From Mesorhizobium sp. (GTDB lineage: Bacteria > Pseudomonadota > Alphaproteobacteria > Rhizobiales > Rhizobiaceae): a DNA stretch of 64,000 nt. Below the pieces are notes generated by a model, which did no database searches, was not told the DNA's origin, and saw only the letters and a list, made by a program, of their open reading frames with translations. This document shows positions 42,230 through 63,250 of the stretch, piece after piece. Within the stretch, counting starts at the first letter, position 1; each line of letters begins with the position of its first letter. Where the stretch lies: the NCBI GenBank assembly GCA_004017535.1, contig SAJS01000003.1, forward strand, positions 248,001 through 312,000. Reading direction: 5' to 3'. The position numbers and the translations under genes were made by a program.

Positions 42230-42254
42230 AACGCTGCGCAATACTTCCCGTTCC
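42230..42254 (-). promoter_or_regulatory. EcfG-type general-stress promoter (minus)
   Basis: Read on the minus strand: GGAAC, 16 bases, CGTT. This is the exact consensus of the alphaproteobacterial general stress sigma factor. It serves the 45-residue gene and is divergent from the 42268-42293 copy. Confidence 0.8.
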
Positions 42255-42267
42255 ACTTCGCCCTAGC

Positions 42268-42293
42268 GGAACCTTTTTCAGACGCGCGACGTT
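42268..42293 (+). promoter_or_regulatory. EcfG-type general-stress promoter (plus)
   Basis: GGAAC, 17 bases, CGTT, 48 bases before the small membrane gene at 42341. It is only 13 bases from the divergent minus-strand copy. Confidence 0.8.
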
Positions 42294-42340
42294 GGGGGCA
42301 GCCCGGTTAGGGCAATCCTGGCGATAACGGAGGCTCGCTT

Positions 42341-42508
42341 ATGGGCGCATCGGTACTCATCGGCATCCTGATCACCTTCCTGGTGGTGATCCTGGTGCTC
42401 TATCTCGTGCAGCGCTTGCCGCTCGATGCCCGCACGCGACAGATCGCGCAAATCATCGTCATCATCATCGGAATCATATCGCTGCTCAAATATCTTGCGG
42501 TCTTTTAG
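42341..42508 (+). CDS. Small membrane protein, Thivi_2564-like
   Basis: A 55-residue protein starting MGASVLIGILITFLVVILVL with a second hydrophobic segment (IIVIIIGIISLLKYLAVF) after a QRLPLDARTRQ linker. The two-segment plan resembles the Thivi_2564 family of small membrane proteins. CGGAGG precedes ATG by eight bases and an EcfG promoter precedes that. The next gene starts 44 bases on and is likely co-transcribed. Confidence 0.8.
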   Translation: MGASVLIGILITFLVVILVLYLVQRLPLDARTRQIAQIIVIIIGIISLLKYLAVF

Positions 42509-42551
42509 CCGCGGTCCATATTCCACACGAAAAGCCCAAAGCCTGGTGTCC

Positions 42552-42860
42552 ATGAGAATCCTGTCGATCGCACGCCTTGCGGGCAACTTGTTGAGCGCCG
42601 CTACGCTGTTGTGCGCCGCGAGCGCCGCCCACGCCCGGCCGGATACGCGCGCCATGACGTGCGCCCAGACGCAGGCGCTGATCCAACGCGACCATGCGGT
42701 GGTTCTGACCACCGGTCCGGAGACTTATGACCGGTTCGTGCGGCAATTCGGCAATGAGTGCGACTGGCCGGAAGTGCCGATATCGACGACCGTTCCCGCC
42801 CAGGACGGCGAGTGCGGCGTCTATCGGTGCGAGGAGCCGGTCGACCTTTCAGACCGGTAA
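42552..42860 (+). CDS. Exported four-cysteine protein, unknown function
   Basis: A 102-residue protein with signal peptide (MRILSIARLAGNLLSAATLL, cleavage near AHA-RPD). The mature part has cysteines in AMTCAQTQAL, NECDWPEV and GECGVYRCEEP, four in all, suggesting two disulphides. Family not recognised. It follows the 42341 gene on the same strand. Confidence 0.7.
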   Translation: MRILSIARLAGNLLSAATLLCAASAAHARPDTRAMTCAQTQALIQRDHAVVLTTGPETYDRFVRQFGNECDWPEVPISTTVPAQDGECGVYRCEEPVDLSDR

Positions 42861-42973
42861 CCGCCTCTTGCGGTCCTGGCGGAACCATAGCAACCTCATG
42901 CAGGTTGTAGGGGCCAGCAGCAGGACTGGGCGGCCGCGACTTGGTTCTACGTTTAACAGCAGGAGGAACGGCG

Positions 42974-43453
42974 ATGCCTGAAATCGCGCGCACCGGCAGT
43001 TGCTTGTGCGGCGGCGTGCAGTTCCGCGTCGCCGGCGAGCCACGCCGGGTAGGCCTGTGCCACTGCAAGGATTGCCGCAAAACAAGCGGATCGGCTTTTC
43101 ACGCCTATGCCGTATGGCCGCTTCAAGCGTTCGAAGCCAGCGGAATCACCAGCACCTATGGCGCTCGAAGTTTTTGCCCTACCTGCGGAAGCCGCGTTCC
43201 ACTGGTTGGCGAGGAGGAAGTCGAGGTCACGATCGGCAGCCTTGACGTCGCGCCGACCGAAGGGCTGGTGCCGGAGTACGAGCTCTGGATCGGAAGGCGC
43301 GAATCCTGGCTGCAGGCCCTCCCCGCGGCGCGTCAGTTCGAGCATGACCGGGTCGCCGTTGATACGGCCGCCGGCAATGAAATTGACCCGGAGCTCCGGC
43401 CAGAAGTCGGCCTAGGTCGGATCACTGTCGGACTTAAGCCTGAACGGCAATGA
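42974..43453 (+). CDS. GFA/CENP-V family zinc protein
   Basis: A 159-residue protein. Zinc ligands occur as SCLCGG near residue 8, CHCKDCRKTSG near 29 and FCPTCGSRVPL near 67, the pattern of glutathione-dependent formaldehyde-activating-like (GFA) proteins. True formaldehyde activity is not implied. ATG 42974 follows AGGAGG. Confidence 0.85.
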   Translation: MPEIARTGSCLCGGVQFRVAGEPRRVGLCHCKDCRKTSGSAFHAYAVWPLQAFEASGITSTYGARSFCPTCGSRVPLVGEEEVEVTIGSLDVAPTEGLVPEYELWIGRRESWLQALPAARQFEHDRVAVDTAAGNEIDPELRPEVGLGRITVGLKPERQ

Positions 43454-43946
43454 CCTGCGGTCCAAGGGAACCCGGCGCCGCCCGGAAAGGACCGGTTGCC
43501 GATTGAGATGCCAAGCTGTTCTTCAAGCTCCGTCTGTTTCAACCACCGGTAGGTTTGCCGGTCAGTCAGCCGCCGGTAGCATTTCACGGCGAGTCGTGAC
43601 CTGCACGTTCTTAGGCAGCGATGTCCGTGGAGTTTTTTCCGCTTCGCGGAACGCAAGAATTTTTGGCCACCTCTTTGGCAATACAACCTTTTGGTTTGCT
43701 TCTCCTGCCGGCGCTTGTGTTCAGCGCGTGAAGTACCAAGCCGCAATTGCAATATCGAAGTGAAATTCTTTGAGCCTAAGAAATTTCTTTAGACCATTGC
43801 TTCTGGTTGTATCAAAACATGACGCTCGGAATTGCGGCAGGCAGTAAGCCTTATGATTCCAGACCTTGTACAAAAGGCCGCCTTTGTTTCTTTCATTTTT
43901 TTCGACATAGTGCTGCCGAATCTTGAAACCGGAGCGGGCGGTTTTC
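43454..43946. other. AT-richer gap, possible remnant gene
   Basis: This 493-bp stretch is visibly richer in A+T than its neighbours and uses runs such as TTTTTTCC and TTTGTTTC. A minus-strand frame reads CYRRLTDRQTYRWLKQTELE near 43480-43560, protein-like but with no family recognised and no start that I trust. It may be horizontally gained or decayed DNA. Confidence 0.35.
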
Positions 43947-44492
43947 ATGACATCGGCGCCTGAACACGGCCGCAACATGCATATGCGGTATCCGCCGATT
44001 GACGGGTTCTGGGACTGGGACGTCAAGCGTGACCGCGTCAATGGCGACGCCAACCTTTCAGACTATCTCGGCTTGACACCCGACGAATTCTCGCATGGCG
44101 CGTCGCTGGAACGCTGCATGCAAAGCATCGATGTGGAAGACCGGCCCAGGGTCCGATTGGCGATCCGCAAGGCGATAGAACGCAAATCTGGCTTCAGGGA
44201 AGTCTACAGGGTCCCGTCGGAGAAGATGGCGCTGCGCAAGATCCTGGCTTTGGGCCAATGCTACGCAGACGGTGTCGGCGAGGCAGCGCTCTGCCCTGGC
44301 TGGTTCGTCGATCTGACGAAGGATGCCACCTGCGAGGAACAGTCGCTGCGCGAGATCCACAATCACGTCGGACAGGCCAAGGACATCGCGCGATCGATCG
44401 GACACGACCTGTTGTCCTATCTTCTGCATAACGTCGAGGAAGAGGTCGAGCAACGGCTTGACGGAAGGCTGAGGAGGCGAAGATCGTCCTGA
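43947..44492 (+). CDS. PAS-like sensory protein without output domain
   Basis: A 181-residue protein. FWDWDVKRDRVNGDANLSDY near residue 22 and LGLTPDEFSHGASLERCMQS are the PAS start seen in rhizobial signalling proteins; a PAC-like GFREVYRVPSEKM follows. The C-terminus is a helix (LREIHNHVGQAKDIARSIGH) with a basic tail and no kinase or cyclase. Start MTSAPEHG at 43947. Overlapped on the other strand by the 44058-44690 frame. Confidence 0.65.
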   Translation: MTSAPEHGRNMHMRYPPIDGFWDWDVKRDRVNGDANLSDYLGLTPDEFSHGASLERCMQSIDVEDRPRVRLAIRKAIERKSGFREVYRVPSEKMALRKILALGQCYADGVGEAALCPGWFVDLTKDATCEEQSLREIHNHVGQAKDIARSIGHDLLSYLLHNVEEEVEQRLDGRLRRRRSS

Positions 44493-44690
44493 GGCAGCTT
44501 TCGCCGATCGTTTGCGGGTCAGCTTCGCCGCATCGCCGTAAAATTCGATCATCAGCCCGGCTGCCCGGACGGCATCGGCTTTCAAGCGGCCGAAATCGAC
44601 TTGCCCGTTTTCGAACGAAGGCTCGCTCCTGGCAATCAGGTCAAGCATGGCTTGCAACTTGTCAGGAGTGCTGCCCTCGTATTCGTTCAT
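44058..44690 (-). CDS. Hypothetical protein, N-terminal part credible
   Basis: The first ~80 residues from ATG 44690 (MNEYEGSTPDKLQAMLDLIA, then SFENGQVDFGRLKADAVRAA) look like a normal helical protein. After about 44450 the frame runs opposite to the PAS gene, and the rest is probably not real. A stop may have been lost, or the true protein ends near 44440. Function unknown. Confidence 0.45.
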   Translation of the reverse strand: MNEYEGSTPDKLQAMLDLIARSEPSFENGQVDFGRLKADAVRAAGLMIEFYGDAAKLTRKRSAKAASGRSSPPQPSVKPLLDLFLDVMQKIGQQVVSDRSRDVLGLSDVIVDLAQRLFLAGGILRQIDEPARAERCLADTVCVALAQSQDLAQRHLLRRDPVDFPEARFAFYRLADRQSDPGPVFHIDALHAAFQRRAMREFVGCQAEIV

Positions 44691-44850
44691 GCTCGCTATC
44701 CGATTGGGCGCGGAAAATGTCGACATTTCCGCTCTAACAGGTTCGTTGGCGGGCCTCAGTACAACCGCGTGCAGCCGCACTGCGCACGGTGCCACAACTT
44801 TCATGCAAGCATAGTGATCCAGACTTACCGCGCAGATTGGGGGGGCGCCC

Positions 44851-45045
44851 ATGCACCAGCCTAGCAAAATGGAAAACCTGCAGTTTGCGCAGGGGATATT
44901 GCGAGAACTTCGCCAGAAGGCCGAAGCCGACGGCGAAAAACTCCTGACTTATCTCATCGATATGGCTTATCTCGAGGCCAGCGACCGCATCCGCGCCCAC
45001 TGGATCGGCACCCACGGACATGAAAGCCGCCGCGCCAAGGGCTGA
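44851..45045 (+). CDS. Small helical protein
   Basis: A 64-residue protein starting MHQPSKMENLQFAQGILREL and continuing EADGEKLLTYLIDMAYLEAS, followed by a polar tail. It follows a G-rich site (GGGGGGCGCCC). The helical stretch resembles the tail of the PAS protein just upstream, which hints at a shared binding module. ATG 44869 is an alternative start. Confidence 0.6.
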   Translation: MHQPSKMENLQFAQGILRELRQKAEADGEKLLTYLIDMAYLEASDRIRAHWIGTHGHESRRAKG

Positions 45046-45171
45046 GCCGCCCAAGGCAATTTCATGCTCGCTGCGGTTTTCCGTGCGGAATTTGGCCGGA
45101 TCGATAGCTGGAGCGGTTCAGCGTTTCCGCCAGAGGCTGGGTCGCGCAGGCCCAGCGAAGCATCCTGAACG

Positions 45172-45207
45172 CAAAAAGGCCCGCCATGCCTCTTCGGCAT
45201 GGCGGGC
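45172..45207 (-). terminator. Terminator of msrA
   Basis: On the minus strand GCCCGCCATGCC, loop of five, GGCATGGCGGGC is a perfect 12-bp stem followed by TTTTT. It lies 45 bases beyond the msrA stop. Confidence 0.92.
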
Positions 45208-45251
45208 TGTGCTTGGATAGCAAGGTTAGATGCGATAGCCTCGCCGCCGAT

Positions 45252-45773
45252 CTATGATGCGGCAGCCTTCTGGCGGACCGGAAGCTTCCATCCCGGCCGC
45301 GCGAAGTGGCAGGTGTAGCCGTTGGGATAGCGTTCCAGATAGTCCTGATGCTCGGGCTCGGCTTCCCAGAAGGGGCCTACCGGAGCAAGCTCGGTGACGA
45401 CCTTGCCGGGCCACAGGCCGGACGCATCGACGTCGGCGATCGTGTCCTCGGCGATCCGCTTCTGCTCGTCGCTGGTGTAGTAGATCGCCGAACGATAGCT
45501 CATGCCGATGTCGTTGCCCTGGCGGTTCTTCGTCGTCGGATCATGGATCTGGAAGAAGAATTCGAGCAGCGTGCGGAAACTGGTCCTGGCCGGATCGAAG
45601 ATGATTTCGATTGCCTCGGCGTGAGTGCCGTGATTGCGATAGGTCGCGTTGGCGACATCGCCGCCGCTGTAGCCGACCCGCGTTGAAATGACGCCTGGCA
45701 AGCGTCGGATCAAATCCTGCATGCCCCAGAAGCAGCCGCCGGCAAGGACTGCGCGCTCGGTGGAAGAAGCCAT
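45252..45773 (-). CDS. msrA: Peptide-methionine (S)-S-oxide reductase
   Basis: A 173-residue Msr[11 protein letters not shown] puts the catalytic Cys at residue 14, and [20 protein letters not shown] follows. It repairs oxidised methionine with thioredoxin. AAAGGAGG precedes the start at seven bases. A strong terminator follows. Confidence 0.96.
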
Positions 45774-45938
45774 GTCACACCTCCTTTGGATTGCTCCATA
45801 GATAGGCGTTGTGGCTGGCTACTTCCAGCGGCTCGAGTGGTCGTCCGCCAAGGCTTGGCGAATTGCGCCATGATTGGTCGGTCACCGAAGGCGAACACCC
45901 GCCGGCAAGTGCTCGGCGGGTGTTCGAAGTTGCGGTGA

Positions 45939-46139
45939 TCAGCGCTCCCGGCCCCGGCCGCCGTGGTCGTGATCATGGCCGCCGCCAAGGCAGGCCCCGT
46001 CGCCGAGGCCGCAGCAGCGACCGCTCCAAAGCTTGTTCGTCGAAGTGTTGCCGCATCCTTGCTGGTCGGCCATTGCCGAACCGGCAAATGCAGCGACGGC
46101 GACAAAGGCAAGAAGAGTATTGCGAAGCATTTTGGCCAT
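45939..46139 (-). CDS. Small exported Gly/Cys/His-rich protein
   Basis: A 66-residue protein with a signal peptide (MLRNTLLAFVAVAAFAGSAM then A). The mature part has three or four cysteines (GCGNTSTNKLWSGRCCGLG) and a GGGHDHDHGG tail that could bind metal. Not recognised. ACGGAGGA precedes ATG. Confidence 0.65.
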   Translation of the reverse strand: MAKMLRNTLLAFVAVAAFAGSAMADQQGCGNTSTNKLWSGRCCGLGDGACLGGGHDHDHGGRGRER

Positions 46140-46284
46140 CTGGATTCCTCCGTGTAATGAATGTCCATTTGCAGCGATATGTCGCTTGAGAACATGAAAT
46201 GGTTCACGAAGTTCTCGGAAAATGCCGTTGCGCCTGTATCACTATCTCGAAAACCTGCTCACCGCGGCTCTGCCCCCGCCGCCA

Positions 46285-46611
46285 TCACTCGCAGGATTTC
46301 GATTTGAATCTTCGGATCACCACCTCGAAGACGATGTCCGAGATCCACATGGCCGAGACGCCGATCAGGAAGGCGGCGGCGAGCGTGGTGGTGTCGTCGG
46401 CGGCGTTGGGCATCGGCAAGCCGCTTGCCTGAACCCAGGCGACGGCAGGCAATGTCAGATAGGCGGCGGCCAGGGCGCCGCAGATGGGCGAGGCGATCAT
46501 CTCGCGCAGCTTGTAGCGATGGCGCGACAGCGCCCGCAGCACGCCGCCGGCGAGCCCCGCCGCCACGACCTGGCCCTTGATGCCCAGAAGATCGAAAATG
46601 TCATGCATCAC
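46285..46611 (-). CDS. LydA-type holin-like membrane protein (prophage remnant)
   Basis: A 108-residue protein with about three hydrophobic segments. GLAGGVLRALSRHRYKLREM near residue 18 and CGALAAAYLTLPAV resemble holins of the LydA family. It overlaps the spanin lipoprotein gene by four bases. Holins form the lesion that releases endolysin during phage lysis. Confidence 0.6.
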   Translation of the reverse strand: MMHDIFDLLGIKGQVVAAGLAGGVLRALSRHRYKLREMIASPICGALAAAYLTLPAVAWVQASGLPMPNAADDTTTLAAAFLIGVSAMWISDIVFEVVIRRFKSKSCE

Positions 46612-46802
46612 GGCCTCCAGCCACAGAGCTTCTCGCCCTTGCGGTTGTGCGCAAGCAGCGCCCTCGCCTCCTGATCCGACAGCATTTCGACGGCCCTGGC
46701 GGAGAGGCGCATCGGCGCGGCGGCGGCGCAGAAACCGCCCCTGGCCGTCGTGCAGCCGGCAAGGGCGGCGACGGTGGCTGCGAGGATCAATCCCTTGCCC
46801 AT
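46608..46802 (-). CDS. Outer-membrane spanin lipoprotein, Rz1-like
   Basis: A 64-residue protein with lipobox LAATVAALAGCTTA, acylated at Cys near residue 16. Small outer-membrane lipoproteins partly overlapping an Rz-like gene are o-spanins. It overlaps the upstream gene by 16 bases in another frame. Confidence 0.7.
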   Translation of the reverse strand: MGKGLILAATVAALAGCTTARGGFCAAAAPMRLSARAVEMLSDQEARALLAHNRKGEKLCGWRP

Positions 46803-47133: not shown

Positions 47134-47135
47134 GG

Positions 47136-47339
47136 TCAGTGCTCCCAGCCGAACCGGCGCGCGAGCAGATGCCACCACTCGGCCGCGCCGGCGATGGCAA
47201 GACCAAGACCGGTCTCCAGCGCCATCTGGATATCGGGATCGGCGGAGAACGCCGAGGCATCGTCGGCGCCCAGAAGGCCCCGGGTGACAAGCACGCCCGC
47301 GCCATAGCGCAGGGCGATGCGGATGATGACGGCAATCAT
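47136..47339 (-). CDS. Small prophage membrane protein
   Basis: A 67-residue protein with a hydrophobic N-terminus (MIAVIIRIALRYGAGVLVTR) and a second segment (GLGLAIAGAAEWWHLLARRF). It overlaps the fused terminase/muramidase gene by four bases. Similar short genes lie beside phage endolysins in Rhizobiales prophages. Confidence 0.6.
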   Translation of the reverse strand: MIAVIIRIALRYGAGVLVTRGLLGADDASAFSADPDIQMALETGLGLAIAGAAEWWHLLARRFGWEH

Positions 47340-48493
47340 TGGCAGAACACTCCGAGGAGATTGCAGGGAAGATGTGCGGCCCAGGCGGTTAGCGCGCCGA
47401 GCGCCAGCGCGATCAAAGCGAGGATGCCGGCTGCCTTGGCGGGTGATGCGGATTCGGGCAGCGCGGCCGACGCCTCAGCGCCGGCATGCTGCGCTGCGTC
47501 GGCGGGCGGCGCGGTTGGCGCCACAGCATCGGCGGATGCTGGCGCCGTCGGCACGGATACCGTCGTCGTCAGCGGCGCGGCCGATATCAGCAGCGCCTGC
47601 CGGCGCACAGAGGCGACACGCGCGCTCCAGCCCCGGCCGAAGCTCGGCCAGGTCGGCAGCCTTTCGAGAAAGGCGAGCCGCGCGTCGCAAAGCGCGTCGA
47701 TGACGACGCCGGCGGACTTTGCCCTCGCCGCCGCCAACGTGGCCGGGCCGATGCGGCCGTCCTGGACAACGCCGAGCACGGCTTGAAGATATTTCGCCGC
47801 CCTGCCCGGGCCGCTGTTCACGGCGAAGTCGAAGACGGCGTAGTCGATGCCATCGGGGAGCGAGGCGCCCGCCACGGCATCCCAGTAGAAGCGGCGGTAG
47901 AGGCGGAACTCCTCGAACCACGCCGCAAGAGTGGAAAACACCTTGAAGCGGCCGGACTGCATGCGGTCGAGCATGTCCATCAGGCCGGCCTCGACCGAGA
48001 CTGAACCGTCGGCGAAGCGAGCGTGACCGGTCAGCATGTTCAGCCCATGCGCGGCATATTGCTTGGCAAGCGCCACGCCGGCGCCTTCCAGCGTCTCGCG
48101 GCGGCCGTCGCGGGGCCAGGCGAAGGGCAGCCATTCGCCCCAGGCCTTCAGCGCCACTGCTTGCATGGCCGGCGTCTGCTGGGAAGCGCGATGGGCCTTG
48201 GTCACATAGACGACATCGGCCTCAGTATCCCAGGCCAGCTCGACAGCGGCCGAAGGATGGTCCCAGCCGAAATCGAGCGCGCCTAGCCTAGGCCACCAGC
48301 GCGGCAGCTTGAACGGCTCGCAGGCGATCAACTCCTCCGCCACCGGGAAGATGCGGCCCGAGCCCAGCACGGGAATGCCCTTCGCGCGGGCCTCGCGCTC
48401 ATGCTCGGGATAGGCGGCGATGATCTCGGCACGCTGCTCGGGCGAACAATGCCCGGCATCGTCGATGGTCATGAAGGTAACGTGGCGGGACAT
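47336..48493 (-). pseudogene. Prophage fusion: terminase C-terminal half joined to GH108 muramidase C-terminal half
   Basis: From MSRHVTFMTIDDAGH at 48493 to about FEEFRLY (residue ~195) it is the C-terminal nuclease half of a phage large terminase, including ALDFGWDHPSAAVEL. At YRRFYWDAVAGASLP it becomes the C-terminal half of a GH108 endolysin (YAVFDFAVNSGPGRAAKYLQ, then VVQDGRIGPATLA) plus a membrane segment. The endolysin lost its N-terminal catalytic (EGGY) half and the terminase its end. The join is in frame and deletes the whole head-tail module. Confidence 0.85.
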
Positions 48494-48504
48494 GGCAACT
48501 CCAG

Positions 48505-48670
48505 TTCCTCGCCCTACACAAGTGGGGAGAGGTGGCGCGGCGAAGCCGCGACGGAGAGGGGCAGCGCCAGCGTTTGACAAACAGCGGAAAGCTGCTCGCT
48601 AAGCTTGTCGCCCCACGAAATCCCCCTCTCCGGCCGCTGCGCGGCCACCCCGCCTTGCGGGGGCGAGGAA
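48505..48670. mobile_element. MITE-like repeat family B, copy 2, inserted in the terminase gene
   Basis: A 166-bp unit with TTCCTCGCCC / GGGCGAGGAA ends and the same paired blocks as copy 1 (8587-8746). It splits the terminase between RFLS... and ...MSRHVTF, so reading stops soon after the element starts. No clear target duplication is visible: flanks read CTCCAG on the left and GCCAAG on the right. Confidence 0.8.
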
Positions 48671-49347
48671 GCCAAGTTCTGAACCGCTTCAGCCGACAAA
48701 AACCGCAGCACCACATTACTCATGCCGAGCAGCGGCGTGAAGGTCACGATCGTGATGCCGTCCGTTGCATTGGTGCGTGTCAGCCCCTCGGAATAGATGT
48801 CCAGCGGCGGCTCCTCGTCGAACCAGACGCCGTGCAGCGTCTCGCCCTGCCATTTTTCGCGGCCCTTTTCGTAGCTCTTGAAGGAGAGCACGCTTTCGCC
48901 GGCCTGGACGTCGCCGCCGCCACCCCAGCGCACGACGACGCTGTCCAGCGCTCCGGGCGCGCCGCGGCCCATCACGGTGCCGGCGATGGCGTCGGCCGGG
49001 ATCATGCCGGTGCCCCATTCGCCCTGCTGCTGCGGCGGGCCGACCAGCACGCGCTGCGGATTGTCGCGCGTGCCCTCGCCGGTGACGCCGGCTGCCCAGA
49101 GCCTGACGGGCTGGTCGAACACTTTGCCTGCCCACCAGTCGGGATAGCGGCCGGTGAGGTGCATGGCCCATTCCGCGCCCCCTGCCCTGGTCTTGCCGAG
49201 CTGGTTGCCGGCCATGAACAGGCGCTCGCGGTGCGTCGCGCCCGCCGTGTGAAAGGCGGCCTGCCTTTCGTATGGCGCGTAGGCGGCAAGAAGGTTACGG
49301 CGCCGCCTTCGGTCCAACTCCTCGAGCAGCGCCAGATAGGCCTGCAT
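48514..49347 (-). pseudogene. Phage terminase large subunit, N-terminal half (interrupted)
   Basis: Walker A appears as FMAGNQLGKT near residue 45, and the Walker B-like VWFDEEPP near 168, with TPLLGMSNVVLRFLS before the break. The remainder of the frame translates the repeat element and has no terminase sequence. Start MQAYLALLEEL at 49347. Together with 47336-48493 it would form one terminase. Confidence 0.85.
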
Positions 49348-49708
49348 CGCTGTCGAGGAGCGGCCGGAGACTCGCCTCGAGGCCACGGATGCGGCTGCGG
49401 ATCTCCTCATCGCTCAGTTGCTCGAAACTGGTTTTATCGACATCGAAACTTTCCGAGCTGGCCGCAAAATCCTTGGGCAGCAGCGTCAGCACGACCTTCA
49501 GATACTGGTCGGGCTTTTCGGCCCTGACCGCGGCGATGACGCCGGCGCCATGGGCGCGGAAGTCGGCGCGCAGGGCGGCGGCGAAGTCATCGACGAGCGC
49601 CTTTCGCGGGCGCTTGCGGCAGGCGGCGGCTTGAACCGGTGCGGGCTTCGCCGGTTTCGCGCCGGCGGGCTTACGGCTCGCGGCCTTGCCGGCGTCAGCC
49701 CTGGGCAT
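49295..49708 (-). CDS. Small terminase-like phage protein
   Basis: A 137-residue protein with a basic Ala/Lys N-terminus and a helical body (DDFAAALRADFRAHGAGVIA, then VRAEKPDQYLKVVLTLLPKD). The EKPDQYLKVV(L/A)SLLPK stretch is typical of small terminase-associated proteins in rhizobial prophages. It overlaps the large terminase start by 53 bases. Packaging is presumably dead because the partner is broken. Confidence 0.6.
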   Translation of the reverse strand: MPRADAGKAASRKPAGAKPAKPAPVQAAACRKRPRKALVDDFAAALRADFRAHGAGVIAAVRAEKPDQYLKVVLTLLPKDFAASSESFDVDKTSFEQLSDEEIRSRIRGLEASLRPLLDSDAGLSGAARGVGPKAAP

Positions 49709-50329: not shown

Positions 50330-50354
50330 GGAACCAACCGTGATCCGACGGGTT
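50330..50354 (+). promoter_or_regulatory. EcfG-like promoter variant
   Basis: GGAAC, 16 bases, GGTT: one base off the consensus. It lies 68 bases before the exported protein at 50423. The spacer and box partly form an inverted GGAACC/GGTTCC. Confidence 0.45.
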
Positions 50355-50422: not shown

Positions 50423-50740
50423 ATGCTTACGAAGATTCTCGCGGCTTCGGCCCTGACAATCGGCCTCGCCACGGCGGCGCTGGCCCAGACCGCGAACTCG
50501 ACCGACAACTCGGCCGGCAGCGGGCAAAGCATCACAGTCGAGCCGAGGACGCCGGCCACCCCGCCGCCTGACCAGATGGCGCCAGATACCGGCACGACCG
50601 GCAGCGTCACCGGCGGCGATATGAATTCCAACGCCGACAAGAACTGCCCGAACAGCCCGCAGGGCGCGCAGAGCGATGCCAACAACACCGCTACCAGCAC
50701 GGTGCAGCCGAACGTCAACGATAACAATTGCGGCAAGTAG
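50423..50740 (+). CDS. Exported low-complexity protein
   Basis: A 105-residue protein with signal peptide (MLTKILAASALTIGLATAAL, cleavage near ALA-QTA). The mature part is rich in Thr, Ser, Asn, Pro and Gly with no hydrophobic core; two cysteines sit near the end (DKNCPNS, NNCGK). It is probably disordered. A good terminator follows. Family not recognised. Confidence 0.65.
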   Translation: MLTKILAASALTIGLATAALAQTANSTDNSAGSGQSITVEPRTPATPPPDQMAPDTGTTGSVTGGDMNSNADKNCPNSPQGAQSDANNTATSTVQPNVNDNNCGK

Positions 50741-50826: not shown

Positions 50827-50851
50827 GGAACAATGCGGCGTTCCGACCGTT
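50827..50851 (+). promoter_or_regulatory. EcfG-type general-stress promoter
   Basis: GGAAC, 16 bases, CGTT, 24 bases before the start of the 50876 gene. The -35 box and spacer also form a hairpin (CGGTCGGAAC and GTTCCGACCG, 50822-50849). Confidence 0.75.
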
Positions 50852-53947: not shown

Positions 53948-54703
53948 TCAGCTGGCCTTCGCCTGCCGCGGATGGCTGATCGAGTCCCGCACGGTGCCGT
54001 ATTCCGCGCCCCAGCGGTCGGTCATGTCGCAACGGATGTCCCACAGTTCGGGGAAGAAGCGGTGGCGGGCGCCGCCTTCCAGCATCTCCACCGGGCGGCC
54101 CTTCAATGACTTCGAGCCCAAGCCGATCGAGCGGTGGATCAGGTAGAGGTGGTTGGCGCGGAATTTCTGGAACAGCTCGTCGAACTCGATCAGCGCTTCG
54201 GCCACGACATAGGCGTCGCCATGATCGTAATGCTCGTCATAGATATCCGCCACGGTCAGCCCGCGGTCATCGAGATAGGCATGCTTGAAGGCCCGCCAAA
54301 GGTCCGGCGGCAGGCGCAGCAGGAATTTGAAGCCGGGCGATTCCTGGCCGCTGCCATTGCCGAGCTGCAGGCGGATCTGCTGATACTCCTTGGGCGACAT
54401 GGTCTCCAGCAGATCGAGCTGCGCCGTCATCATGCGCATCAGCCGGTGCACGCGGCCCATCAGCGTGACGATGCGATGGGTGTCCTGTTTCTCCAGGTAG
54501 TCGAGCACATCGACCAGCGTGTAGGCGATGAGCTTCATCCACAGCTCCTCGACCTGGTGCACGATCTGGAACTGCAGCTCGTCGGCGTTGACCATCTCGG
54601 CAAGCGGCTTCTGGCAGGCGAGCAGCTGGTCGCATTTCAGGTAGATGCCGTAGTCGCGCATTTCGGGCGCTTCGATGCGGGCGTGATAGTCCGTCTTGTC
54701 CAT
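53948..54703 (-). CDS. kynA: Tryptophan 2,3-dioxygenase
   Basis: A 251-residue haem dioxygenase that opens the indole ring to N-formylkynurenine. YGIYLKCDQLLACQKPLAE near residue 18 and FQIVHQVEELWMKLIAYTL near 47 carry the substrate-side motif; the late GARHRFFPELWDIR region fits the haem-binding end. It lacks neighbouring kynB/kynU here. Divergent from an Lrp-type regulator, 134 bases apart. Confidence 0.9.
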   Translation of the reverse strand: MDKTDYHARIEAPEMRDYGIYLKCDQLLACQKPLAEMVNADELQFQIVHQVEELWMKLIAYTLVDVLDYLEKQDTHRIVTLMGRVHRLMRMMTAQLDLLETMSPKEYQQIRLQLGNGSGQESPGFKFLLRLPPDLWRAFKHAYLDDRGLTVADIYDEHYDHGDAYVVAEALIEFDELFQKFRANHLYLIHRSIGLGSKSLKGRPVEMLEGGARHRFFPELWDIRCDMTDRWGAEYGTVRDSISHPRQAKAS

Positions 54704-56125: not shown

Positions 56126-57202
56126 TCAAACGGCGATGTCGCTGTCGGTATCGGTGCCGAGTTGCGGGACGATGATCGCCTCGAGCGGCGCGTCGAGCGC
56201 CCATTTCAAACTGCCGTCCGAGCGTTCGAGGCTGGAAGAACCGCTCAGCGACTGCGGAGCCACCCGCTGCAGCACCACCGTGCCGAACCCTTTTCGTTCG
56301 GCGGCGGCCCCCTTCTCCTTGCCAGTCTTCTGCGCAATCCCAGTTCCTGCCGCGCCGGACGTCTCCTGCCACAAAAGATGAAACCGCCGCCGCGCGTCCG
56401 GACCCATCTCGACCTTCCAGGTGATTTCCACGTGGCCGCCGTCGACGGCAAGGGCGCCATATTTGGAGGAGTTGGTGCCGAGCTCATGGAAGGCCATGCC
56501 GAGATTCTGCACCGCATTCGACTGCAGCGTCAGCAGCGGCCCGGACAGAGAGATGCGTTCCTCATGGCCGAAGGGCTTCAGATGCTCCTGGACGAGGTCG
56601 AACAGGCTGGCGCCGGCCCATTCCGACGTGACCAGAAGGTCGTGCGAGCGCGACAGCGCCATGATGCGCGCGCGGATCATCTGCTCGAACTCAGCGGGAT
56701 CGGTCGAGCGCTTGCTGGTTTCCCTGACCATCGACAGGATCACCGCGAACTGGTTCTTAACGCGGTGGTTGACCTCCCGCATCAGCAGCCGAATGCGGCG
56801 CTCGCTTTCCTTGGCGGACGTGATATCGCGGGCAATCTGCGAGGCGCCGACGATCTCGCCCGCGCTGTTCCTGATGGGAGACACGGTGATCGACACGGCG
56901 ATCAACGAGCCGTCCTTGCGCTTGCGCGTCGTCTCAAGACTGCCCACGCCCTCGCCCCGGCGGATACGGCCGATGATCTCGGTCTCCTCGCTGTGCATGT
57001 GGTCGGGGATCAAGATCAGAATCGACTGGCCGATCACCTCCTCGGCGCTGTAGCCGAACATGCGCTCGGCCGCGTGGTTCCAATCGGTGATGACGCTGTT
57101 GAGGTCCTTGCCGATGATGGCGTCATAGGAAGAGTCGACGATCGCCGCGAGGCGAGCATCGGCATTGGCGTTCGGACGAAAGATCCCCCCTGGACTGGTC
57201 AT
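56126..57202 (-). CDS. PAS-containing HWE/HisKA_2 histidine kinase
   Basis: A 358-residue soluble protein. PAS: IVDSSYDAIIGKDLNSVITD then WNHAAERMFGYSAEEVIGQS near residues 21-65, PAC through VGASQIARDITSAKESERRI. The HWE-type H-box is LLMREVNHRVKNQFAVILSM near 140, and the ATPase has NLGMAFHELGTNSSKYGAL. Such kinases phosphorylate PhyR-type regulators in alphaproteobacteria; six EcfG promoters lie nearby. Start MTSPGGIF at 57202. Confidence 0.85.
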   Translation of the reverse strand: MTSPGGIFRPNANADARLAAIVDSSYDAIIGKDLNSVITDWNHAAERMFGYSAEEVIGQSILILIPDHMHSEETEIIGRIRRGEGVGSLETTRKRKDGSLIAVSITVSPIRNSAGEIVGASQIARDITSAKESERRIRLLMREVNHRVKNQFAVILSMVRETSKRSTDPAEFEQMIRARIMALSRSHDLLVTSEWAGASLFDLVQEHLKPFGHEERISLSGPLLTLQSNAVQNLGMAFHELGTNSSKYGALAVDGGHVEITWKVEMGPDARRRFHLLWQETSGAAGTGIAQKTGKEKGAAAERKGFGTVVLQRVAPQSLSGSSSLERSDGSLKWALDAPLEAIIVPQLGTDTDSDIAV

Positions 57203-57259
57203 GCGCATCAAATAGGGCCGCCCACAATCAAGGCAACGTATCCGCTGGATCGCATCCGC

Positions 57260-58112: not shown

Positions 58113-58171
58113 GCGCGTCGCGTCTGAACACCCGATCGACCGCGCCCCTCGGCGCGCATGACACGGCCTGG

Positions 58172-58250: not shown

Positions 58251-58361
58251 ACGAGGTTCAGAAGCCCCCAGGTCATCGCCGACGTTTGCGCTGACCACCC
58301 AGCGGATGTTGATAGCCTTCCTTGAAGCCTGCAAATCTTTCAACATCACTGTGTTGAGGAA

Positions 58362-58583: not shown

Positions 58584-58599
58584 TGTCATCTCCTTAATC

Positions 58600-58624
58600 A
58601 AAAAAGGCCGGGCAAAGCCCGACC
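58600..58624 (-). terminator. Terminator of cspA
   Basis: Minus strand: GGTCGGGC-TTT-GCCCGGCC followed by TTTTTT. It lies 66 bases beyond the cspA stop and before the small basic gene. Confidence 0.9.
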
Positions 58625-58689
58625 TTCTCCAACGCGCCTCCGTGGCCTATGCCAGTACATCCGTGGTCAAGGACCGCGAGGCGCCGTGA

Positions 58690-58899
58690 TCAGGCGGCTT
58701 GCAGATTCTCGGCCGAGCTTTTGCCGCTGCGGGCATCTTTCACGACGTCGAAGCTGACCTTCTGGCCTTCGACGAGCGAGCGCAGTCCTGCGCGCTCCAC
58801 GGCCGAGATGTGCACGAACACGTCTGGCTGGCCGCCGCCCTGCTCGATAAAGCCGAAACCCTTGGTGGAATTGAAAAACTTCACCGTTCCAGTAGTCAT
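58690..58899 (-). CDS. cspA: Cold-shock protein
   Basis: A 69-residue CspA-type RNA-binding protein: RNP1 KGFGFIEQ near residue 13 and RNP2 VFVHISAV near 27. AAGGAGATCG precedes the start. The gap upstream to 59192 has no gene and can hold a long leader, as is common for cold-shock genes. Confidence 0.95.
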
Positions 58900-59124
58900 T
58901 GCGATCTCCTTACAAATCGACGCAAAATCACACGCGCCCGGCCACTGCCGAGCGACGAATTCTTCGAAATTGAGAGGGAAGATCGCAGGGGCGCATTTTG
59001 CGCGAAAACAACGTTCTTTCAGCAAGATCGATTTGACAGATATAGCTCTTAATTCCCTCAACGACAAGGGCTCCAGCCATAATACTTCAAAGCGCGAGCC
59101 GTCCCAGCGAAAGAAGTTCCCGCC

Positions 59125-59149
59125 GGAACAGTCGATCCGACAGAGCGTT
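59125..59149 (+). promoter_or_regulatory. EcfG-type general-stress promoter
   Basis: GGAAC, 16 bases, CGTT, 43 bases before the start of the 59193 gene. Confidence 0.75.
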
Positions 59150-59192
59150 GGTTTCTGAATTCGACGAGCGCGGTTTCCTGAATGGGGCAGCA

Positions 59193-59360
59193 ATGGCCAA
59201 AAGGGACAACAATCCACCCTCTCACGACGTGGTGCAGCGCCTGGTGCGGGAGACGGGCATTAGCGAGGCACAGGCACGCGAGCTCGTCCGCCTTATCGGC
59301 CTGGACTGGAGTTCTCTTGTCCGCGAGGCCAAGTTGATCGCCTCCCCGCCCCGGGATTAA
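59193..59360 (+). CDS. Small helical stress-type protein
   Basis: A 55-residue protein starting [20 protein letters not shown], with [20 protein letters not shown] after it. The pattern recalls DUF3606, a short rhizobial family, but the match is not certain. An EcfG promoter precedes it. ATG 59193 follows GGGGCAGC. Confidence 0.65.
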
Positions 59361-59368
59361 GTCCGGAT

Positions 59369-59782
59369 TCAGCCCCTGGGATCCAGATGGTCGAGGATGG
59401 CAAGGCCGGTTTCGTATTTCTCGGGCGCGACGCCCGCCTGGTGGGCCTGCCAGAGATTGTCGCGCAGATCGGCTATCTTCACCGGCAATGCCAGCGCGTT
59501 CGAGGCGGCGCGGTAGAGAAAACCTTCCTCGCTCTCGTCCATGCGCCGCGTCAGCGCATCGACCGCGGCCACCACCGGCTGGCCGAAACCGGCGCCCTGC
59601 AGCCTCTCCATGGTCCAGCCGTCGCCTTTCTCGACAACGTCGTGCAGATAGGCGACGGTTTTCTCGTCCAGCGTCTCGACGGCATCGGCAACGCGCCTCA
59701 GATGTTCGATATAGGGCCGGCCGGTCTTGTCCGTCTGTCCGCGATGGGCCTGCTCGGCGATCTTTGCTGCCTGGTGAAGCAT
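59369..59782 (-). CDS. HD-domain phosphohydrolase-like protein
   Basis: A 137-residue protein: LHQAAKIAEQAHRGQTDKTG and RPYIEHLRRVADAVET at the start, YLHDVVEKGDGWTMERL in the middle (HD pair) and LPVKIADLRDNLW later. This is the RelA/SpoT-type hydrolase fold without a synthetase, as in small ppGpp hydrolases; activity not shown. ATG 59782 follows GGAAGGATC. An EcfG-like box with one mismatch lies at 59915-59939 (minus). Confidence 0.8.
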   Translation of the reverse strand: MLHQAAKIAEQAHRGQTDKTGRPYIEHLRRVADAVETLDEKTVAYLHDVVEKGDGWTMERLQGAGFGQPVVAAVDALTRRMDESEEGFLYRAASNALALPVKIADLRDNLWQAHQAGVAPEKYETGLAILDHLDPRG

Positions 59783-60216
59783 GATCCTTCCAATCTGGTC
59801 ACAATAGAGCCCGCCCCGGCGAGGGACGGCCGAGGCGGGCTTGCTCGGGTCTGGACCCGAAGGTGGCGCGCCTTTCGCGGGGGGAGCGGGGCTGCGCGCC
59901 ATCGTGCCTTCCAGAACAGCGGCGCCGCGCGAATGTTCCCGCCGATGCGGGACTTTTTGAGGATGCGGCGCCTCCGTTCCACATTAGACCGATGCGGCCA
60001 AAAAGAAGCTCCGTCGCAAACCGGTTTGAGAGGTCCGGCAAACAACCAAGCCGACCGGAGGGCAAGCCATCCAAACGCTAAGTCGACGGGAGGCAGTCGA
60101 CCGGACGGCCGTTCGTTCTGCGCCTGCAAATCTGCCGGGTCATCATGGCGGCCGGATGATCCGGCAGCACATGGGATCCAGCGACCGGCACCACCGGAGA
60201 AAAAGACTTTTCCGCA

Positions 60217-60241
60217 GGAACCTGGCGACCCCGCTGCCGTT
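60217..60241 (+). promoter_or_regulatory. EcfG-type general-stress promoter
   Basis: GGAAC, 16 bases, CGTT, 31 bases before the CsbD start. It lies in the 490-bp gap between the HD and CsbD genes, in which no other gene is seen. Confidence 0.8.
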
Positions 60242-60272
60242 AGCCCTGCGTGTCCAACAGGAGGTACGACAA

Positions 60273-60476
60273 ATGGATTGGAACCGCGTTGAAGGCAATT
60301 GGAAGCAGGTGAAGGGCAAGGTCAAGGAACAGTGGGGCAAGCTCACCGACGACGACCTCGACCGCATCGCGGGAAAGCGCGACCAGCTCGAAGGCAAGAT
60401 CCAGGAACGCTACGGCATCGAGAAGGATCGCGTGCGCCGCGATATCGATGACTGGTACAGCCGCCAAGGCTGGTGA
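60273..60476 (+). CDS. CsbD family stress protein
   Basis: A 67-residue protein with the usual CsbD plan: WNRVEGNWKQVKGKVKEQWG, then KLTDDDLDRIAGKRDQLEG. Family members are induced by stress or phosphate starvation; role unknown. Preceded by AGGAGG and by an EcfG promoter, followed by a strong terminator. Unlike the 10.9-kb homologue it ends normally. Confidence 0.9.
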   Translation: MDWNRVEGNWKQVKGKVKEQWGKLTDDDLDRIAGKRDQLEGKIQERYGIEKDRVRRDIDDWYSRQGW

Positions 60477-60494
60477 CAACCGACTTCCCGAAGC

Positions 60495-60526
60495 AAAGGG
60501 CGCTGCCGCGCGGCAGCGCCCTTTTT
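60495..60526 (+). terminator. Terminator of csbD
   Basis: GGGCGCTGCCG and CGGCAGCGCCC with a two-base loop, then TTTTTG. Perfect 11-bp stem. Confidence 0.93.
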
Positions 60527-60691
60527 GCTGAGTCGTTCAGGATTGCGCGAGGCGGCCGCGCATCTCCATCTCGCCCCCGCCGAACCGCCCTGCCCTTCGG
60601 CGCCCGATTTGCTTGGCCGAGGTGATGGCGCCGGGCGCATCCGGCCACCCGGCGGCCGGGGCTGAAATTCGACTTTGCCGTCGTCCGGGCT

Positions 60692-60716
60692 GGAACCTTC
60701 ATTCTCGGTCCGCATT
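60692..60716 (+). promoter_or_regulatory. EcfG-like promoter variant
   Basis: GGAAC, 16 bases, CATT: one base off. Ten bases before the 60727 gene, which leaves a very short leader, so its use is uncertain. Confidence 0.35.
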
Positions 60717-60726
60717 TGTTGTGGCC

Positions 60727-60918
60727 ATGGATGTTTTCGACGCAAATTCTCTGGTCATCGAACAGGCAAAGGCCCTGCGCTCCGAAAACAGCCGCATGCG
60801 AGAACTGGCTTGGGCGTATGTGGAGCAATCCAGGGCCCTCGCCCAGCAGTTGGCAGCGATCCGGAACCAATCAAGCCGGACCTTGCCGACGATGGGCGAC
60901 TTGACTGAGATCGAATGA
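60727..60918 (+). CDS. Small coiled-coil protein
   Basis: A 63-residue protein starting MDVFDANSLVIEQAKALRSE and continuing with a charged helix (MRELAWAYVEQSRALAQQLA). No family recognised. Confidence 0.55.
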   Translation: MDVFDANSLVIEQAKALRSENSRMRELAWAYVEQSRALAQQLAAIRNQSSRTLPTMGDLTEIE

Positions 60919-61013
60919 GCCCTAGATTGCTCAGATCGCTGGTAACCCCCACTGGACACTATTAGCGGCTGAGAGACGACGAACGCGCTCCCGTCTGAAA
61001 ACGGGAGAGCGCT

Positions 61014-61193
61014 ATGCGCCAAGCCAGAACTGCGTTGCCCCGGGCACGCGAACCCTTCCAAGATCAACTCATCCAAGGCAGCAAGGACGCGATCAAGCGC
61101 TCACGGGAATTGCTGCGCCGCACTGAGCGTGTGGTGCGCTCGGAACCGCCGTTTGTCTCGGAACAGCCTTCCGACGAAACCCCTAATCCTTAG
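61014..61193 (+). CDS. Small basic protein
   Basis: A 59-residue frame starting MRQARTALPRAREPFQDQLI, helical and basic in the middle (KRSRELLRRTERVVRSE). GGGAGA precedes ATG. No family recognised. Repeat C copy 2 starts right at its stop. Confidence 0.55.
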   Translation: MRQARTALPRAREPFQDQLIQGSKDAIKRSRELLRRTERVVRSEPPFVSEQPSDETPNP

Positions 61194-61288
61194 GGCAATT
61201 CCAGGTAGAGTAAGCGGTTTTCCGTCCGGAATTACTCAAAAACCTGGGAGATGGAAGATTTCACCGTTTCCGTGAAACGATGAAATGT
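61194..61288. repeat. Palindromic repeat family C, copy 2
   Basis: Reverse orientation of copy 1: GGCAATTCC, AGCGGTTTTCCGTCCGGAAT, then TTTCACCGTTTCCGTGAAAC. The 61194-61546 gap otherwise has no gene, only the leader of the Crp-type gene. Confidence 0.7.
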
Positions 61289-61546
61289 TCCAGTCGCAGG
61301 ACTGCTTCGAGCGCAGCGTAACCATGTCGCTGTTCCCCGTCGGCGCCAACAGCGAATTTGACGCGATCGGCTTCAGGCATCGAACCGGGCATGCGTTCCC
61401 GCATTTCGCGGGGGAAAAAGCGCCCAGATATCAAATGTTAGCGCACTCTGTTCAACAACCCCATACCTCGTCAAACGCGCCTGTTTTTGAATCACTTGTG
61501 ACATCCCCTGTGACCGGGCCGCTCGGCCTGCTCATGGAAGACATGA

Positions 61547-62266
61547 ATGCTCGAATCGCTTTTCCTGAACCTCGGCCAGCACGACAGCCTCTCGGACGAG
61601 GAACAATCCCTGCTCGGCGATTTGATGGCCGGCGAGCGCAGCTTCACCGCGGGGCAGGACATCGTCGCTTCCGGATCGCGACCGGTCTACAGCACGCTTC
61701 TCCTGGACGGCCTCGCGGCCCGATACAAGGTGCTTGCCGATGGCGGCCGGCAGTTCACCTCCCTGCAGGTTCCAGGCGATTTCGTCGACCTCTATGCCTT
61801 CCTGCTGAAGACAATGGACCACGGCGTCATCGCGCTGTCACCCTGCCGCGTCATCCTGGCCGACCATTCGAAGCTGCGCAGCATCACCGAGCGGGCGCCA
61901 CACCTGACGCGGCTTCTGTGGCTGGACACGCTGATCGACGGCGCCATCCATCGCGAGTGGATCGTCGCCATGGGGCGGCGCTCGAAAGTCTCGCATCTGG
62001 CGCATCTGTTCTGCGAGTTGTTCGTCAGGCTTGAGGTGGTGAAGCGGACCAACGGCATGAGCTTCCATTTGCCTGTTTCGCAGGCCGAGCTCGCCGATGT
62101 GCTCGGCCTGTCGGTGGTGCATATGAACCGCGTCATCAGCGCGCTGCGAAACAGCGGCGTGATCGCCTGGGCGAACCATACGGTGACGATCCTCGACTGG
62201 CGGAAGCTGCAGCAGATCGCGGAGTTCGATCCGACCTATCTCTCGATGACGCGCGAGCCACGGTAG
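61547..62266 (+). CDS. Crp/Fnr family transcriptional regulator
   Basis: A 239-residue protein: cyclic-nucleotide-like beta-barrel (ERSFTAGQDIVASGSRPVYS near residue 30, then FTSLQVPGDFVDLYAFLLK) and a C-terminal winged HTH (VSQAELADVLGLSVVHMNRV near 177). It has no Fnr-type cysteine cluster, and the phosphate-binding cassette is altered, so it may sense something other than cAMP. Confidence 0.88.
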   Translation: MLESLFLNLGQHDSLSDEEQSLLGDLMAGERSFTAGQDIVASGSRPVYSTLLLDGLAARYKVLADGGRQFTSLQVPGDFVDLYAFLLKTMDHGVIALSPCRVILADHSKLRSITERAPHLTRLLWLDTLIDGAIHREWIVAMGRRSKVSHLAHLFCELFVRLEVVKRTNGMSFHLPVSQAELADVLGLSVVHMNRVISALRNSGVIAWANHTVTILDWRKLQQIAEFDPTYLSMTREPR

Positions 62267-62306
62267 CACTCTCCCGAACCGGCCGCGCTTTTCCGGCCGA
62301 CGCCCA

Positions 62307-62549
62307 TCAGTCGCCGCGTCGTTTCCGGTGCGCAGACTCCTGATTCTCGCCGCGCAGCATCTGCCTGTCGTCGGGATCGATCAGATCTCGCTCGCCGGGC
62401 TTCAACGCGCTGCCTTTCGCGCGGGCGGCCCGCTCCTGGCCAGGCCGCTTCAGCTCTTCCCTGGCGTTGAAATCCTTGCCGGCGTTCTTGGTGTTGACCC
62501 GCTCCTCGATGATGCGTTGCTGCTGGTCGTGCGTTGTCTTGCCTGCCAT
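62307..62549 (-). CDS. Small hydrophilic conserved protein
   Basis: An 80-residue charged protein starting MAGKTTHDQQQRIIEERVNT with DRQMLRGENQESAHRKRRGD at the end. GGAGAGACC precedes ATG. No hydrophobic core; probably disordered. An EcfG-like GGAAC-N16-GGTT lies at 62676-62700 on its strand. Function unknown. Confidence 0.65.
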   Translation of the reverse strand: MAGKTTHDQQQRIIEERVNTKNAGKDFNAREELKRPGQERAARAKGSALKPGERDLIDPDDRQMLRGENQESAHRKRRGD

Positions 62550-62585
62550 AACGGTCTCTCCTGTGCTGAAACCTCTCAAAATGGA

Positions 62586-62618
62586 GAAGCCCGCCCGGAG
62601 GATGAGCGGGCGGGCTTC
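62586..62618. terminator. Hairpin between 62549 and 62849
   Basis: GAAGCCCGCCC and GGGCGGGCTTC form an 11-bp stem with an 11-base loop. No T-run on either strand, so direction and role are unclear. Confidence 0.5.
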
Positions 62619-62798
62619 TATCGGGAGGATTGGAACCCCGATGGCGGCGGGCTTCGGGGATGCCGCCGCGGACCAAACCGGCGAGCGGCTTTTATGTTCC
62701 GGCAGGAAGCGACGCTGGCGAGTTCAACTGAGCCTGGCGTGCCACAGCCCGCTCACATGCTGCCGCCGGCGGGCGATGACAAATCACGATTGCGCAAC

Positions 62799-62823
62799 GG
62801 AACAAGTCCAGGCGCTTCCGGTT
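62799..62823 (+). promoter_or_regulatory. EcfG-like promoter variant
   Basis: GGAAC, 16 bases, GGTT, 25 bases before the 62849 gene; the same variant as at 50330. Confidence 0.4.
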
Positions 62824-62848
62824 TCGCAGTGATCAGGACTGCGTGAAA

Positions 62849-63046
62849 ATGGCCCAGGATCGACGTCACAACGAAGCTCTCGCCAGGTTGCTGAGACAGC
62901 AGTTTTCCAGTGAGTTTTTGAGACGGCACCTGCGCGCGTGGCCACTTTTTCGAGTTGATCGTCAGCTTCCAGAACGCCTTCGAGTCCTGCTTGAAAGGCT
63001 CGGGCGAAGGAGCGGTCGAAATCACAAAGGAGATGACAACCGCTGA
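62849..63046 (+). CDS. Small basic helical protein
   Basis: A 65-residue protein starting MAQDRRHNEALARLLRQQFS, with LRAWPLFRVDRQLPERLRVL and a basic end. LPERLRVLLERLG weakly recalls the VPDRFxxLLxxL segment of NepR anti-sigma proteins, too weak to assign. GTG 62843 is an alternative start. The overlapping minus-strand frame looks less protein-like. Confidence 0.5.
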   Translation: MAQDRRHNEALARLLRQQFSSEFLRRHLRAWPLFRVDRQLPERLRVLLERLGRRSGRNHKGDDNR

Positions 63047-63079
63047 GGGGCCAAGTTCGGGCAATCAGGAGAGACGCCG

Positions 63080-63185
63080 TTAAAGCATGTCTCCCGAAAG
63101 TGGGAACCGGTTTCGGGATAAAGACATGCGCAAATCAAGACCTAAAGCGCATGGAGCGAATCCGAAGGATCGCGACGCGCTTTAA
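63080..63185. repeat. Two-hairpin repeat, related to family C
   Basis: GCATGTCTCCCGAAAG ... GATAAAGACATGC, then AAAGCGCATGG ... GACGCGCTTT: two hairpins with a short linker. The layout matches a repeat common in Rhizobiales. It separates the 62849 gene from the EcfG promoter at 63226. Confidence 0.65.
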
Positions 63186-63225
63186 GACTTCGGTCCGGAC
63201 AGCGCGGGACTGTGGGCCCACACCG

Positions 63226-63250
63226 GGAACGGAAGCCATGTGCTCCCGTT
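63226..63250 (+). promoter_or_regulatory. EcfG-type general-stress promoter
   Basis: GGAAC, 16 bases, CGTT, 55 bases before the 24-residue frame at 63306. No other start lies between. Confidence 0.8.

Follow-up and report, generated by a model that had tools for sequence, protein, structure and literature searches.

Among alphaproteobacteria, the closest described relatives of the system considered here are the regulons of the EcfG/RpoE2/SigT type, in which the PhyR-NepR-EcfG partner switch is established (PMC4814048, PMC5830050). The promoter consensus reported for Rhizobium etli is GGAAC-N16-CGTT (PMC3892343), and the account of Sphingopyxis gives the same consensus, with csbD among the directly regulated genes (PMC7083833). 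The present analysis concerns a 64-kb stretch of DNA from a Mesorhizobium sp., a soil bacterium with kin among the legume symbionts (hereafter the window; C33:248001-312000 in a genome of 6.86 Mb on 73 contigs), in which six exact matches to GGAAC-N16/17-CGTT occur, each shortly upstream of a gene. In window order these genes encode a 45-amino-acid (aa) protein, a Thivi_2564 family protein, a DUF883-like protein, a 55-aa helical protein, a CsbD-like protein and a 24-aa peptide. The six sites are very probably promoters of EcfG, an extracytoplasmic function (ECF) sigma factor of group ECF15, and the 21-kb stretch that they occupy would accordingly be a local island of the EcfG regulon. This interpretation, which the initial annotation had already favored for the small genes of this region, is adopted because of the bias of the motif towards intergenic DNA, the specificity of its spacing, its conservation upstream of orthologous genes as against their neighbors, and the presence of phyR-nepR-ecfG genes with the same motif. 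The likeness to the regulons of R. etli, Sinorhizobium meliloti, Sphingopyxis and Sphingomonas extends to the consensus itself, a site before nepR-ecfG, csbD as a target, and many targets lacking an assigned function (PMC7083833, PMC3892343, PMC3616915, PMC6599016). What sets the locus apart from them is that small genes are gathered in a second dense island at a distance from phyR-nepR-ecfG.

A scan of both strands recovered the six exact sites at the coordinates and on the strands given in the initial annotation, with no seventh match within the 64 kb. The distances from the last T of the site to the start codon are 32, 47, 24, 43, 31 and 55 nucleotides (nt) in window order, which agrees with the earlier range of 24-55 bases. 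The earlier estimate was of about one chance match per 64 kb; dinucleotide shuffles of the window (n=100) yielded a mean of 0.80 exact matches (standard deviation 0.90, maximum 3), none of them reaching six, and the genome total of 132 matches in 6.86 Mb corresponds to 1.23 per 64 kb. Random placement of 132 sites put at least six within 21,021 bases in 0.7% of cases, a figure for which the length of the stretch was picked post hoc. When any base was permitted before the terminal GTT (GGAAC-N16/17-NGTT, hereafter the NGTT form), 14 sites were found in the window against 1.95 expected, a number reached by none of the 100 shuffles. Thirteen of these sites are intergenic and all lie within 42.0-63.3 kb, with no intergenic site in the first 42 kb of the window, while the 14th is inside an HWE kinase gene; the pair at 50330 and 50332 is a single near-palindromic place counted once per strand. 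The variant sites add the genes of DUF3309, GFA-domain, 105-aa, HD-domain and 80-aa proteins as candidate members.

The count of exact matches across the genome was dropped as evidence, as 132 exact matches stand beside 162 matches to a reversed-pattern control; with the count thus being uninformative, controls based on position and spacing were used instead. On the 437-kb contig that contains the window, about 83% of which is called coding, all 15 exact matches are non-coding. In a sample of 828 kb, 38 of 39 exact matches are intergenic, and the corresponding figure for another 800 kb is 25 of 33, as against 7 of 43 for the same boxes at wrong spacings (11-14, 19-22 and 23-27). Taken together, in 1.63 Mb the intergenic fractions are 63/72 for exact matches, 23/113 for wrong spacings and 8/43 for the reversed pattern, so that gene interiors do not hold as many exact matches as the gaps; at spacings of 15 and 18 the fractions are 0/7 and 1/5. 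Both samples were chosen with part of the list known (100 of the 132 places) and are not a random draw, with the choice being blind to the genic or intergenic status of the matches. A few of the intergenic labels might be wrong, as they come from a simple gene caller that overlooks very small genes. The compact regulon of the initial annotation was not borne out: with 132 exact matches genome-wide, and a denser group at phyR-nepR-ecfG, the window holds one dense island of a genome-wide motif. On another contig (C1), 41 intergenic sites of the NGTT form were found in 220 kb, 36 of them at about 40-160 kb. Contig C1 also carries paralogues of the 55-aa, 24-aa and CsbD proteins.

The core regulators of the response were recovered in the same genome by profile searches. 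NepR was detected with 55.3 bits, and PhyR with a PhyR_sigma-like match of 84.2 bits together with a receiver domain. The sigma factor encoded directly after nepR (PhyR_sigma2 48.8 bits, Sigma70_r4_2 64.3 bits) possesses a PhyR-type sigma2 domain and was taken as EcfG. Two exact sites stand back to back in divergent orientation between phyR and nepR, and the surrounding 7.6 kb (C73:158501-166129) contain ten exact EcfG-type sites; the cluster in the window is thus a second island, less dense than the one at phyR-nepR-ecfG. In the vicinity of the latter cluster a Crp-type regulator and a DUF1328 protein are encoded, along with a DUF883-like protein that scores just under the Pfam cut-offs.

For comparison with related genomes, the gene at 53948-54703 (minus strand), a tryptophan 2,3-dioxygenase by Pfam with its closest named relatives in Mesorhizobium strains (identity up to 98%), served as the center of a set of named loci, 80 of 284, in which counts were made only where the respective gene was found. 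A second set, the genus loci, is limited to the 30 top-ranking loci of each search (12 in the case of the 45-aa protein) and includes the window's own locus. The comparison showed that orthologues keep their sites. The exact site precedes csbD in 16/16 named and 25/30 genus loci, the 45-aa gene in 10/12 genus loci, and the DUF883-like gene in 25/26 named loci with starts taken from the alignment. In the genus set the DUF883-like gene had the site in 20/30 loci before re-setting of starts, the start codons of distant members being misplaced, and in 28/30 (at 22-45 nt) after starts were re-set following the motif; as the latter count is conditioned on the motif through the choice of start, 25/26 is the cleaner one. 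The two remaining genus loci comprise one with the site at 273 nt and one without it. The Thivi_2564 gene has an exact site upstream in 28/30 loci, the window's own among them: in 15 the site stands directly before the gene, which starts 62-92 nt after the first base of the site, and in 13 the corresponding distance is 463-487 nt, with a DUF883-like gene in between. The site is absent from L038, which belongs to a different family, and from L039, which matches only in part. In one genome (L026, L084) the Thivi_2564 and DUF883-like genes occur in reverse order behind a single site. The NGTT form was found upstream of the HD-domain gene in 13/17, the 105-aa gene in 24/26 and the 80-aa gene in 1/2 named loci. 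No site was present upstream of the control neighbors in the named loci (SPW 0/27, HWE kinase 0/24, CspA 0/13, Crp 0/6; 0/70 in total), and elsewhere in the same genus loci exact matches occur at 0.013-0.033 per 262 nt. The genome thus displays three features by which an EcfG regulon is recognized, namely phyR, nepR and ecfG, the motif 24-55 nt before the starts at six sites, and its retention upstream of orthologues, this last being weaker for the 55-aa family and for the exact form before the 24-aa peptide.

The 24-aa peptide is nearly all one hydrophobic stretch as judged by eye. At an E-value up to 1 it was recovered in 26 of 37 genus genomes, and at an E-value up to 0.01 in 61 of 249 genomes of the order, the 61 falling into 26 of the 111 genera sampled. 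It further occurs in 73 plasmid records (Rhizobium, Ensifer, Phyllobacterium, Methylocystis, Shinella, Bosea, Microvirga and others). Many of these matches have weak E-values, as a query of 24 letters would lead one to expect. Among the 40 plasmid records listed, 34 have no gene at this place, four are unannotated and two have a hypothetical protein, one of which (H1) is on the opposite strand; the gene table for the plasmids has gaps, and almost no features are given in some of the records. The peptide sequence is kept across genera with its start and end fixed, and the ratio of nonsynonymous to synonymous polymorphism (pN/pS) is 0.25 at a pS of 0.66 (29 sequences). With corresponding values of 0.34 for the 45-aa protein (8 sequences) and 0.16 for the Thivi_2564 protein (28 sequences), all three are under purifying selection. 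The NGTT form precedes the peptide gene in 27/30 genus and 3/3 named loci. Beyond the genus, where 37 of 39 loci could be placed (best order-level matches and 12 of the 73 plasmid records), 12 of the 18 sites found are exact, the background elsewhere being 0.031 per 200 nt. Many of the spacers between the -35 and -10 boxes of the peptide-gene promoters contain inverted repeats, the letters of which vary by lineage (e.g. ATTAG..CTAAT and TTGCC..GGCAA; upstream regions L165-L189); over 23 distinct spacers the mean arm length is greater than in shuffles (z 5.5). The corresponding values are z 0.05 for csbD, z -1.7 (below the shuffles) for DUF883/Thivi and z 2.25 for the 55-aa family. As many of the 23 spacers come from close relatives, the inverted repeat is to be regarded as a lead; it could form an operator. 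These observations allow the tentative suggestion, to which we give somewhat less than even weight, that the peptide, which ranges from Mesorhizobium to Bosea, Microvirga and Haematobacter, might be a common and mostly unannotated effector of the general stress response in Alphaproteobacteria and act by assembling in the inner membrane when cells are stressed, with the spacer repeat hinting at a second regulator of the same promoter. The peptide's letters were not found in the literature searched, the supplementary tables, which may list it or its neighbors, being outside that search.

Several observations weigh against the assignment of these sites to EcfG. The 55-aa family has an exact site in only 13/30 genus homologues (paralogues included) and 3/12 named loci, and only five of its 11 copies in the window's own genome have any form of the site. 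For csbD the site is absent from the five most divergent of the 30 genus loci. Upstream of the peptide gene it is exact in only 6/30 genus loci, 10 of the 27 loci with some form of it have a gap of 99-118 nt before the start codon, and beyond the genus only 18 of 37 placed loci have a site within 200 nt upstream. The loci compared are moreover related, and the counts are not independent events. Further, 8 of the 33 exact matches in the 800-kb sample, which lies outside the motif-rich contigs, fall within genes, and the genome total does not exceed the reversed-pattern control. That total, along with the small fraction of random placements that yields six sites in 21 kb, might be taken to favor the view that a short motif has clustered in intergenic DNA merely by chance; however, the contrast between right and wrong spacings in intergenic placement and the retention of the sites by orthologues reduce this explanation to a negligible probability.

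A different objection pertains to the identity of the sigma factor, as a different ECF sigma factor, or a paralogue of EcfG, might recognize an overlapping consensus and be the main reader of the sites in place of the primary EcfG. The genome itself offers some room for this, in that a further PhyR_sigma-like match passes the cut-off (on contig C55) and two weaker ones occur. Moreover, R. etli is reported to possess two EcfG factors, the regulons of which differ in part (PMC3892343), and the consensus of S. meliloti RpoE6 is described as somewhat similar to that of the ECF15 group (PMC6180224). Nevertheless, the six sites and those between phyR and nepR fit the canonical consensus exactly, and in the R. 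etli study only 1 of 19 EcfG2-dependent units is given as having the motif (PMC3892343), which makes a principal reader other than the primary EcfG rather unlikely. In the specific case of the peptide gene, the promoter could instead serve a small RNA, with the 24-codon frame being untranslated. There is a precedent in the non-coding RNA ReC64, reported to be driven by EcfG1 in R. etli (PMC3892343), and the 34 listed plasmid copies without an annotated gene would be in keeping with it. This possibility is nonetheless very unlikely in view of the conservation of the peptide across genera with fixed ends and its pN/pS of 0.25 at a pS of 0.66.

Table 1. Putative EcfG-type promoters, variant sites and associated genes in the window (positions in the 64-kb stretch)
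Feature	Position	Strand	Remarks
DUF3309 membrane protein, 54 aa	41803..41967	-	PF11752 40 bits, cut-off 22.3 (passed)
Variant site AGTT	42017..42042	-	NGTT form; 49 nt before DUF3309 gene
45-aa protein	42060..42197	-	no family match; single hydrophobic stretch as judged by eye
Putative promoter of 45-aa membrane protein	42230..42254	-	exact match
Putative promoter of Thivi_2564-family gene	42268..42293	+	exact match
Thivi_2564 family membrane protein, 55 aa	42341..42508	+	NF041949 53.6 bits, cut-off 33 (passed)
Variant site GGTT	42881..42906	+	NGTT form; 67 nt before GFA-domain gene (PF04828)
Variant site GGTT	50330..50354	+	NGTT form; 68 nt before 105-aa protein
105-aa protein	50423..50740	+	N-terminus signal-peptide-like by eye
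Putative promoter of DUF883-like gene	50827..50851	+	exact match
DUF883-like protein, 177 aa	50876..51409	+	helical, glycine-rich hydrophobic C-terminal segment; layout by eye
Putative promoter of 55-aa helical protein	59125..59149	+	exact match
55-aa three-helix protein	59193..59360	+	multicopy family
HD_4 domain protein	59369..59902	-	PF13328 33.9 bits, cut-off 27.2
Variant site TGTT	59915..59939	-	NGTT form; 12 nt before HD-domain gene
Putative promoter of csbD	60217..60241	+	exact match
CsbD-like stress protein, 67 aa	60273..60476	+	PF05532 84.1 bits, cut-off 40 (passed)
Variant site GGTT	62676..62700	-	NGTT form; 126 nt before 80-aa protein (62307-62549, -)
Putative promoter of 24-aa peptide	63226..63250	+	exact match
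24-aa membrane peptide	63306..63380	+	MNNIIWLVGAIVIVLAILGFLGIR; nearly all one hydrophobic stretch (by eye)

The proteins behind the six sites are listed in Table 1. The identification of CsbD was confirmed by its Pfam match, and no difference from the remainder of the family was seen. The Thivi_2564 protein, a member of its NCBIfam family by score (the family name was not found in the literature searched), lies behind a putative EcfG-type promoter, and its gene is the second one after a DUF883-like gene in 13/30 loci. The name DUF883-like was sustained only in part: the helical body and the glycine-rich hydrophobic C-terminal segment resemble by eye those of DUF883 (PF05957, PF19029), but membership was rejected, as the window protein has no Pfam match to DUF883 (PF05957) at an E-value up to 0.01 and falls below the Pfam standard; the best score among seven scanned relatives is 18 bits against a cut-off of 25.4.

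Within the families and the literature searched, the initial annotation's expectation of several undescribed members is supported by the 24-aa, 45-aa and 55-aa proteins, none of which has a Pfam or NCBIfam match. The 45-aa protein is present in 12 of 37 genus genomes. The 55-aa protein has 11 matches in its own genome, and its structure model is a three-helix bundle with a mean pLDDT of 85. Foldseek matches of this model are small UBA-like bundles of a generic kind with E-values of 1.1 or worse; as small bundles of this sort are common, any kinship with the UBA-like three-helix domains of Dcn1, EF-Ts and NAC would be tentative. DUF3606 (PF12244) was not matched by the window protein at an E-value up to 1 and was weakly matched by 4 of 27 members of the family (best E-value 0.002), which falls short of membership. 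Among the proteins behind variant sites, the 105-aa protein had no NCBIfam match above the cut-off.

Certain other features in and beside the island were also recorded. An alphaproteobacterial small RNA, ar35 (RF02346, 59.6 bits), at 58597-58720 (minus strand) overlaps a gene for a cold-shock protein (58690-58899, minus strand; PF00313) at its 3' end. Parts of a phage-type terminase lie inside the island at 47336-49410 (minus strand), with Terminase_6N in 48514-49410 and Terminase_6C combined with peptidoglycan-binding and glycosyl hydrolase 108 matches in 47336-48580; this region looks like a broken prophage or the remnant of a gene-transfer agent. Two sensor kinases are also encoded here, namely a PAS-HWE kinase at 56126-57211 (minus strand) and a CHASE3 hybrid kinase at 39853-41787 (plus strand). 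Kinases of the HWE type are reported to coordinate the general stress response in Alphaproteobacteria (PMC12148442).

By analogy with the established partner switch, stress would lead to phosphorylation of PhyR, which would then sequester the anti-sigma factor NepR. The EcfG so released, together with RNA polymerase, would read the GGAAC (-35) and CGTT (-10) boxes and switch on membrane peptides of 24-55 residues, CsbD, the 177-aa helical protein and the 55-aa three-helix protein. The genes of the island would in this manner depend on EcfG and be activated together, each as a small unit of its own. Given their size, their hydrophobicity and the company in which they occur, we propose that these small proteins may shield both the envelope and the cytoplasm when cells are stressed or at rest.

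In conclusion, the locus very probably extends a known regulon by new small members, of which the 24-aa peptide is the newest part. For many genes under the general stress response of Alphaproteobacteria no function is assigned, and annotation readily overlooks genes of very small size; a conserved promoter in combination with a conserved 24-codon frame offers a direct route to such genes. For the genetics of legume symbionts, the analysis provides named candidates in the 24-aa peptide, the 45-aa protein, the 55-aa three-helix family and the Thivi_2564 protein.

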